From contig CAJYJO010000051.1 in NCBI GenBank assembly GCA_913774845.1, positions 1-35,312 of the forward strand: a stretch of 35,312 nucleotides of DNA, read 5' to 3'. Of the stretch, positions 10,985 to 12,182 are shown one piece after another. How positions within the stretch are numbered: position 1 is the stretch's first letter; the number at the start of each line of letters is the position of its first letter. The position numbers and the translations under genes were made by a program. Source of the stretch: an uncultured Microbacterium sp. (lineage in GTDB: Bacteria; Actinomycetota; Actinomycetes; Actinomycetales; Microbacteriaceae). The notes under the pieces are model-generated. The model worked only from the letters and a program-made list of their open reading frames with translations. It had not been told where the DNA came from and did not search any database.

Positions 10985-11713
10985 TCAGAAGCGGTCGGGC
11001 GAGGGGGTGCCGTGACCGTAGCGGATCGAGACGTCGGCGTGCCGGTCGAAGCGGTACCCGACGCCGCGGACGGTGCGCACGATGTCCTCGTAGACACCGA
11101 GCTTGGCGCGCAGACGACGCACGTGCACGTCGATCGTCCGCTCGCCCGGGGCGTCCTCGTCGGTCGAGCCCTCCCACAGGGATGCCACGAGCTCGGTGCG
11201 CTCGATCGTGCGGCCCTCGCGCAGCACCAGGTACTGCAGCAGCTCGAACTCCTTGAACGTGAAGGCCGCCGACTCGCCGTCGATGAGGACGCGCTTGCGG
11301 GAGATGTCGACGACGACGCCACCGGGGGCGCGATCCTCCTCGACGGGCTCATCCTTCGTGCGGGCGACGGCCGACGGTTCGTGCAGGGCGAGACGCACCA
11401 CGTCGACGTCGCGGCCTCCGGCGCCGGCGGGGGCCAGGGCCACCGTGGCGTACGTCTCGGCGGCGGGGGCGAGCTCGCCGAGGGTGCGACGCAGCGCCTC
11501 GACGAGAGTGCCGAGGCTCACGCCGGCGGCCGCGGCCTTCGCCTCGTCGATGCCGACGTAGAGCGCGAATCCGCGCGGGGCGGTGGTGGTGGGGACGGCC
11601 GGACGGGCGGCGGCGGGGGAGCCGACCGCGGGAGCCGCGGCGCGGGCCGGGGTGGTCTGCGAACGAGCGGTCGAGGCGGGCTGGGGGCGGTCCAGAACAG
11701 CGGAGAGCGACAT
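10985..11713 (-). CDS. Winged-helix (OmpR/PhoB-type) transcription regulator lacking a receiver domain
   Basis: The 242 residues end in a typical PhoB-type winged-helix DNA-binding domain (about 130-225): DISRKRVLIDG, FTFKEFELLQYLV, RTELVASLW, ERTIDVHVRRLRAKLG and the wing TVRGVGYRFD. The N-terminal half is not a response-regulator receiver, since no phospho-acceptor Asp region or receiver fold motifs are visible. Instead there is an Ala/Pro-rich disordered segment (~10-45), then a short domain starting RGFALYVGIDEAKAAAAG. It therefore probably senses something other than a histidine-kinase signal. AAGGA 10 nt before the ATG is a weak ribosome site. It sits 182 nt downstream of a leaderless Cys-rich leader peptide on the same strand, suggesting cysteine-dependent control of its expression. 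Confidence 0.82.
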   Translation of the reverse strand: MSLSAVLDRPQPASTARSQTTPARAAAPAVGSPAAARPAVPTTTAPRGFALYVGIDEAKAAAAGVSLGTLVEALRRTLGELAPAAETYATVALAPAGAGGRDVDVVRLALHEPSAVARTKDEPVEEDRAPGGVVVDISRKRVLIDGESAAFTFKEFELLQYLVLREGRTIERTELVASLWEGSTDEDAPGERTIDVHVRRLRAKLGVYEDIVRTVRGVGYRFDRHADVSIRYGHGTPSPDRF

Positions 11714-11895
11714 GAGGAGGAAGTCCTTGGGTGTGTGAACCCGGGCGTCGTCAGAGAGCGGGGTTCGACGGGAGGTGAGGGCCGGCGAGCAGCCGGGAAG
11801 CGGTGCCGGGATGCGCGTGATCGACGCGGATGCCGGACGACCGGAGGACGACGTCGGCGTTCAGAAGCACGAGTTCGTCGGAGCGAGGGTCGCGG
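11714..11895 (-). promoter_or_regulatory. Putative attenuation region between the Cys leader peptide and the regulator gene
   Basis: These 182 nt separate the leader-peptide stop from the regulator ATG and contain no gene. The transcript ends with a pyrimidine run including CCTCC directly before the start codon. This run could pair with purine-rich GGAGG-like segments, one of which (GGGAGG) lies inside the leader peptide frame. Such pairing would give a way to couple leader translation to access of the ribosome to the regulator gene. This is inference from sequence; I did not fold the RNA. Confidence 0.4.
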
Positions 11896-11997
11896 TTAGC
11901 GGCACATTCGACAACACATGACGGCACGGCCGGGCATCATCATGCCGGCAGTCCTGTTCGCCTCCCGGGCGGACAGAGAACGCGCAACGTCAGTCAT
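11896..11997 (-). CDS. Leaderless Cys-rich leader peptide (33 residues)
   Basis: This short frame begins MTDVARSLSA and ends VMCCRMCR-stop, with three Cys codons (TGT, TGT, TGC) in its last six codons. Its ATG lies exactly 6 nt after an AATAAT -10 element that has a TTGACG -35 box 18 bp upstream, so the mRNA should begin at or next to the A of the ATG. Small leaderless frames with clustered Cys codons near the stop are known in mycobacteria and other actinobacteria as Cys-rich leader peptides; ribosome stalling on scarce Cys-tRNA there controls downstream genes. Here the downstream gene is the winged-helix regulator. A plus-strand hypothetical frame overlaps but has no start signals. The gene call rests on promoter, frame and Cys clustering together. 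Confidence 0.72.
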   Translation of the reverse strand: MTDVARSLSAREANRTAGMMMPGRAVMCCRMCR

Positions 11998-12003
11998 GGG
12001 GGG

Positions 12004-12033
12004 ATTATTACGCATCGCGTCCAACAACGTCAA
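12004..12033 (-). promoter_or_regulatory. Strong sigma-70-type promoter of the Cys leader peptide
   Basis: On the minus strand the -35 box is TTGACG (12033-12028, 5 of 6 consensus) and the -10 box is AATAAT (12009-12004, 5 of 6), with an 18-bp spacer. Six C residues separate the -10 from the leader ATG at 11997. It is the best-matching promoter I saw in the window. Confidence 0.7.
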
Positions 12034-12182
12034 ATCGTGTCGCGGTCGTGCGTCGAGGGCGATCTGCTCAATGCGCGCGGGTCGTCGCCGCCCGCGTCGA
12101 GCATTCTGCTCGGCCGGGGGTTCGGCATCCGCTTCTCCCGATACTCACGGACTTCCCGGGCCGCGGGACGGGCCGACGGGCG

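Follow-up and report, generated by a model that had tools for sequence, protein, structure and literature searches.

The window, a 35,312-nucleotide stretch of DNA from an uncultured Microbacterium sp. with a genome of 3.37 Mb, carries on its minus strand a short Cys-rich frame with a promoter directly in front of it and the gene for a winged-helix regulator behind it (Table 1). The sequence-only reading had described a TTGACG-18-AATAAT promoter and a leaderless frame of 33 codons ending in VMCCRMCR and a stop; both are present where it placed them, in a layout shared by relatives. The run CCCCCC lies between AATAAT and the leader ATG at 11997, the A of which is the predicted transcript start. 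A gap of 182 nt (11895-11714) separates the leader stop from the regulator ATG at 11713. A promoter scan of 551 nt returns one site (shuffles mean 0.0, sd 0.2), and an Rfam search of 1,701 nt gives no match up to E 1. The leader holds no intrinsic terminator (0 found; 0.2 expected in shuffles), which sets it apart from a classical transcription attenuator.

Table 1. Features of the leader and regulator locus, in positions of the window.
Feature	Position	Strand	Basis
Regulator, 242 aa: variable N-terminal tail, conserved domain ~47-119, winged helix 147-222	10985..11713	minus	translation, Pfam, alignment
Regulator RBS AAGGA (11728-11724), ATG (11713-11711), second codon TCG	11708..11728	minus	sequence
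Hairpin GAACCC / GGGTTC immediately 5' of the RBS	11737..11766	minus	many listed loci, one Microbacterium clade
Leaderless Cys-rich leader frame, 33 codons, MTDVARSLSAREANRTAGMMMPGRAVMCCRMCR	11896..11997	minus	translation; relatives
Candidate sensing stretch ATG TGT TGT CGA ATG TGC (M C C R M C)	11902..11919	minus	sequence; codon table
Hairpin P1 inside the frame, just 5' of the Cys codons	11929..11949	minus	folding; paired variants
Candidate anti-RBS CGGCAUGA, the 5' arm of P1, forming 8 base pairs with UCAUGUCG (11715-11708)	11940..11947	minus	pairing tests
Hairpin P0 inside the frame (CUGU.CGCC / GGCG.ACAG)	11954..11976	minus	synonymous-variant folding
Promoter: -35 TTGACG 12033-12028, 18-nt spacer, -10 AATAAT 12009-12004	12004..12033	minus	sequence; relatives
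Putative site at which the regulator binds its own promoter: tandem 10-bp units CGACAC/TGACGT/GGACGC that overlap the -35	12017..12042	minus	pattern scan

The promoter architecture recurs across relatives. TTGAC stands 31-32 nt 5' of the leader ATG in 44 of 45 non-redundant promoters, in a search that allowed 26-35 nt; the 45th is a second in-frame ATG of one locus. By inspection, the ATAAT elements of the same genus end 6 or 7 nt before the ATG, as expected for a leaderless start. The locus thus shows two features of the Cys-rich leader class, an apparent leaderless start directly behind a promoter and several Cys codons near the stop that are kept in relatives. Members of the class stand before a cysteine or sulfur gene; here the gene that follows is the regulator, whose probable link to sulfur is described below.

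The regulator has Trans_reg_C as its sole Pfam domain (PF00486, residues 147-222, E 4.6e-20), which bears out the earlier description of a winged-helix regulator without a receiver. Domain searches give no match to a receiver with a phospho-acceptor, the C-terminal domain alone being recognized; of the two parts that define OmpR/PhoB proteins, the winged-helix output domain is present and the receiver is not. The conserved N-terminal domain spans about 73 residues and has no convincing relative among the sequences of solved structures (best E 0.005 over 23 residues). Among the papers listed by literature searches, which covered few subscription papers, none was recognized as dealing with this regulator or with a Cys leader before a regulator. 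In the window, one neighbor of the regulator is an acetyltransferase gene and another has no Pfam match. In three other loci (L106, L107 and L108) it lies just downstream of what, by eye, we take to be the end of upp (uracil phosphoribosyltransferase).

A search of 58 genomes finds some match to the regulator in all of them, outside the family mostly to the winged helix. Matches over the conserved domains occur in 34 of 35 same-genus genomes, the exception (G016) being a contig-end fragment. The N-terminal domain is narrower in range. It is found in 31 of 394 genomes of the class, namely 21 in f1, five in f6, one in f7, three in f38 and one weak match in f51 (f and g numbers being anonymous family and genus labels), and a phylum-wide search of 396 genomes finds it in nine, of which seven belong to f1 and f6 and the other two reach only E near 1e-3. 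The best 80 named matches to this domain are nearly all labelled Microbacterium, and f1 is therefore taken as Microbacteriaceae.

All 34 loci read from the genus, counting that of the window, have the leader frame; the genus sample comprises 35 genomes, and the fragment in G016 is not among the 34. It is likewise present in 77 of 77 assessable named loci, 69 by search and eight more by inspection, from a set of 80 in which L140, L145 and L188, with 3-146 nt of upstream DNA, were left out. This conservation rules out chance, even as the counts across relatives include kin and are not independent. In f1 the gap between leader and regulator measures 148-280 nt, save in one of 87.

Among 100 distinct leader frames, the first Cys position is Cys in 96 (TGT 85, TGC 11) and the second in 99 (TGT 60, TGC 39), while the third codon is TGT in 38 and TGC in 62, in a search that required R-M-Cys and so fixed the identity of the Arg, the Met and the third Cys. 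TGT and TGC swap freely. The third Cys is present in all 34 same-genus loci and all 77 named loci. The first is lost in L004 and L118, which share a peptide with Arg in its place (MRCRMCR), and in L164 and L166, which have Tyr. The residue preceding the Cys pair is Met in 93 of the 100 frames; the first Met codon of the MMM run is variable, with codons for I, T and L in its place. Conservation of the peptide is unusually high along most of its length. The sequence-only reading had named loss of the small frame or its Cys codons in relatives with the regulator as an outcome that would refute it; within the genus and three sister genera the opposite is seen, both being kept. The frame with its RNA is better conserved than a Cys run alone would be, and a few species have lost the first Cys.

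One codon of the leader behaves differently from its neighbors. In all 100 leaders CGA encodes the Arg between the Cys codons (codon 30, 11910-11908), where the search left the choice of codon open; elsewhere in the frame the Arg codons are CGC and CGT. Slow decoding or a constraint on the RNA could explain this constancy.

Beyond the genus the leader changes form. CCRMC is kept in the f1 sister genera g23, g24 and g26, and genus g25 retains one Cys (MRRMCA). Within family f6, the leaderless frame of genus g6 starts with GTG and ends in MRCCRMHA, and in genus g34 the leaderless frame has shifted to another reading frame with its Cys pair elsewhere. No Cys leader was seen in f6 genera g39 and g46, where the regulator is present, and the DNA upstream of the regulator in the f7 genome holds merely a frame with two separated Cys. 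In one g34 locus (L104) the motif TGTCGTCGAATGC is kept upstream of the regulator, with a GTG frame in the other reading frame carrying its own Cys pair, and a complementarity between TCGAATGC and GCATTCGA can be seen by eye in f6. Family f10 provides a case of its own: in the loci printed (L042-L045, ~1400-1560), a Cys-rich frame of the form ..SSMCCRMC[VC]E..CCL stands before cysK-cysE. In L042, cysK is above its cut-off, and the truncated cysE is below that of TIGR01172 and above that of NF041874 (serine acetyltransferase). The f10 frame has a purine-rich, SD-like stretch upstream and an inverted repeat AGCGCTGGC..GCCAGCGCT downstream, and shares MCCRMC with the window leader, to which it is otherwise unrelated.

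Folding of synonymous variants reveals an ordered RNA within the frame. In every one of 33 non-redundant leaders, P0 folds more stably than synonymous recodings do (mean z -1.7), and L049 has a compensatory variant of it, CUGA/UCAG. P1, whose loop is formed by the MMM codons, is more stable than the synonymous mean in 25 of 33 (z -0.63), with paired variants in L052, L056 (GUCGGC/GCCGAC), L063 and L184 (GCUGGC/GCCAGC). The two hairpins taken together scarcely beat synonymous variants (22 of 33, z -0.48), and 32 of 33 leaders show less structure at the Cys end than expected.

The P1 segment is also predicted to pair with the ribosome-binding site of the regulator. Cognate excess, the pairing of a segment with its own partner as against the partners of other species, was found for P1 and the RBS alone among 15 tests of leader and downstream segments (z -4.2, n=50). 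It holds within clades (z -5.2, p 0.0005, n=68), where two control pairs have none. A helix of at least 8 pairs between P1 and the RBS forms in 39 of 68 leaders, as against 4 percent of shuffles. A subset of species drives the effect, since against species with dissimilar P1 the own pairing is better in 39 of 68 only. In the window, the helix of CGGCAUGA with UCAUGUCG covers the regulator start codon. A direct pairing between the Cys codons and the downstream region was considered and rejected, as it yields many helices in single folds but no cognate excess.

These computations show that RNA structure in the leader is under selection and that P1 and the RBS change in a coupled manner. The co-variation makes masking of the RBS by the P1 segment the likely switch, with a ribosome stalled on the Cys codons lifting the mask. 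RBS masking is reportedly also the mechanism that Canestrari et al. 2020 give for mycobacterial polycysteine leaders. The geometry is imperfect, however: a ribosome with the first Cys codon in its A site should cover about nt 64-96. Reaching back only to about nt 64, it would just abut the anti-RBS, and by opening P1 it might free the anti-RBS instead, reversing the direction of the switch.

The regulator is probably tied to sulfur metabolism, to judge from its neighborhood in family f38, the boxes at siroheme reductase promoters and the contrast with operon-level leaders elsewhere. Its orthologs in three f38 genomes were found at E 5e-11 to 1.4e-13 with query A1, in which f38 is not represented. 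In the single genome examined, the next gene after the ortholog encodes a sulfate-binding protein over the TIGR00971 cut-off, and further on lies a permease over that of TIGR00969; the ORF lists of the other two genomes show the same gene start after the ortholog. Upstream of the f38 orthologs lies a frame, VPRLLLTQRRAVDLMRVASQLCR or a close variant, that matches NF042933 (Ms5788A family Cys-rich leader) at E 8e-8, under its cut-off, and exceeds the cut-off of NF042934 (general leader model, cis_reg_atten). At L192:4074-4700, in one of these genomes, two divergent leaders of the RRAVDLMRVAS type stand before the regulator and before its divergent neighbor, which is weakly YeiH-like (below cut-off).

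The genome of the window also encodes a siroheme nitrite/sulfite reductase (below all curated cut-offs) with two PAPS-reductase-family matches directly 3' of it. Reductase promoters were read in 24 f1, 12 f6 (13 loci, L208 and L320 being from one genome), 7 f7 and 32 other genomes, taken from the 146 of 297 genomes of the order that have the gene. The 32 comparison genomes belong to families where the regulator was not seen, as assigned by family-level searches and not genome by genome. A filter for Cys frames before the reductase is passed in 19 of these 32, counted as filter matches and not vetted one by one, as against three of 24 f1, one of 12 f6 and two of 7 f7 genomes. The f1 and f6 matches look accidental on reading, leaving no convincing Cys leader before the siroheme reductase in the 24 f1 or the 12 f6 genomes. 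Some regulator-less families mostly have no Cys frame at this position either (f8 1/5, f12 0/3, f18 0/4). Across the same order, varied Cys frames precede the reductase in L209, L210, L211, L213, L287, L290, L291, L296-L298 and L303-L309, and some of these (CCCVRCAMC, CSCQCSCR) are, by eye, unlike the Ms5788A model.

In place of a leader, f1 reductase promoters carry repeated boxes. Units resembling GTGACG, repeated every 10 bp, reach p<=0.033, from 60 shuffles per promoter, in 23 of 24 f1, 5 of 7 f7 and 4 of 12 f6 promoters and in 2 of the 32 others; the unit having been derived from f1 promoters, f1 cannot test it independently, and the other families serve as the control. The last unit lies 35-37 nt before TANNNT in 19 of 24 f1 reductase promoters, and the -35 match at 17 nt reaches merely 1-4 of 6 positions. 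Boxes at a fixed distance from the -10, together with a poor -35, form the layout of an activator site. The unit recurs at the leader itself, where in 45 non-redundant promoters it scores best, among 70 offsets, at 10 nt after the -35 (z 3.2). Across the whole window genome, the three-unit pattern with up to 2 mismatches gives 9 matches (reversed control 4), three of which fall in the reductase and leader promoters, the pattern having been designed with both kinds of promoter already in view. About half of the same-genus genomes have a siroheme reductase, 11 of 23 in one sample and 7 of 13 in another, and every same-genus genome read has the regulator with its leader, so that further genes must belong to the regulon. 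In five stretches of the window genome with cysK-like, sulfate and leader genes, a scan for Cys frames (at least 3 Cys in the last 14 residues) returned the leader and four unconvincing frames.

These observations support the cysteine-sensitive switch on a regulator that the sequence-only reading had suggested, and they can be assembled into a model. Transcription would start at the leader ATG, and the leader would be translated without a 5' untranslated region. When cysteine is ample, the segment just 5' of the Cys codons would pair with the regulator RBS and start codon and turn the gene off. When Cys-tRNA is short, the ribosome would pause at the three Cys codons, and the paused or queued ribosome would block pairing of the anti-RBS and allow the regulator to be made. 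The regulator would then activate the siroheme (sulfite) reductase operon by binding the tandem 10-bp boxes in front of it, and it would probably limit its own promoter, where the boxes overlap the -35. From these sequence patterns we infer the cysteine response, the direction of the switch, the DNA binding and the activation. As a whole, a Cys leader that sets translation of a dedicated, receiver-less regulator of sulfur assimilation is the best explanation of the locus, with a probability of roughly 0.7. Somewhat less secure, yet still favored, is its evolutionary extension: that in Microbacteriaceae ribosomal cysteine sensing moved from the sulfur operon to one dedicated activator, with a built-in anti-RBS relaying Cys-tRNA charging to the whole regulon and the same boxes making it self-limiting.

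The step at which the leader acts could be transcriptional instead, the position of the ribosome deciding Rho termination in the 182-nt gap with no sequestration of the RBS. The missing intrinsic terminator and the long leader-regulator gap agree with such a mechanism, and Rho has been suggested for Mycobacterium cys leaders (PMC1262725). A purely transcriptional switch, however, would make the co-variation of P1 with the RBS superfluous, and this mechanism is a minority possibility, about one chance in four by our estimate. The direction of the switch could also be opposite, the regulator being a repressor and cysteine starvation turning the leader off. In favor of this reading, P1 could be opened by the stalled ribosome, which would release the anti-RBS, and the boxes overlap the -35 of the regulator's own promoter, but the reductase boxes lie upstream of a promoter that lacks a good -35, at the fixed distance from the -10 typical of activator layouts, and we consider a repressor unlikely.

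The signal raises a similar question. The frame is rich in Met as well as Cys (MMM, M, CC-R-M-C), the Met before the Cys pair is strongly kept, and a Streptomyces lividans frame ending RCMCRRMCAF before metNIQ has been interpreted as methionine-dependent (PMC8079986); the similar ending leaves room for sensing of methionine, or of methionine and cysteine together. Against this, the first codon of MMM is variable and the run coincides with the P1 loop, the f10 CCRMC frame stands before cysK-cysE, and the f38 leader before the ortholog resembles the Cys-leader family, so that a methionine signal seems improbable, much as the repressor does. Least likely of all, and very improbable by our estimate, is that the frame encodes a functional Cys-rich small protein, binding metal or thiols for example, with the regulator protein as its target. 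The peptide is conserved over most of its length and its CCxxC could bind metal, yet the mid-frame conservation coincides with the two RNA hairpins, and the frame of f6 genus g34 uses another reading frame with the Cys pair elsewhere, while g25 has one Cys.

If the cysteine-sensing leader governs the regulator as proposed, control through a transcription factor would amplify one signal read by the ribosome to many promoters, whereas known cysteine leaders are local attenuators of single operons. Several nearby families keep an operon-level Cys leader, which makes the regulatory rewiring directly testable. The model also gives a likely function to an uncharacterized regulator found in every Microbacterium genome searched, and a DNA box with which to map its targets.

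Like PhoB/OmpR-type regulators, the protein has a Trans_reg_C domain, but the receiver is replaced by a short conserved N-terminal domain. Tandem direct repeats are typical binding sites of that type, and the likely tandem-repeat site here resembles them. On the leader side, the mycobacterial Ms5788A polycysteine leaders are likewise leaderless, with Cys near the stop and cysteine supply controlling the downstream gene. The window leader differs in lying outside the profile of that family, in the ordered hairpins inside its frame and in preceding a regulator and not an operon for an enzyme or transporter; NF042933 and NF042934 give no match for it up to E 1, or for a second Microbacterium leader up to E 0.01.

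The Cys leader peptides that Seliverstov et al. 2005 (PMC1262725) describe in Mycobacterium and P. acnes resemble the window leader in their Cys runs near the stop and in having no conserved terminator. They stand before cys or cbs operons, whereas here the siroheme reductase operon has no convincing Cys leader. The ending of the leaderless metL of Streptomyces lividans, RCMCRRMCAF, is similar both to MCCRMCR and to the MRRMCA of g25; metL precedes the methionine importer metNIQ and has been interpreted as methionine-dependent (PMC8079986), in contrast to the window leader before its regulator. A cysteine signal read by the ribosome and passed on through a transcription factor is what we judge to be new relative to the known Cys leaders.
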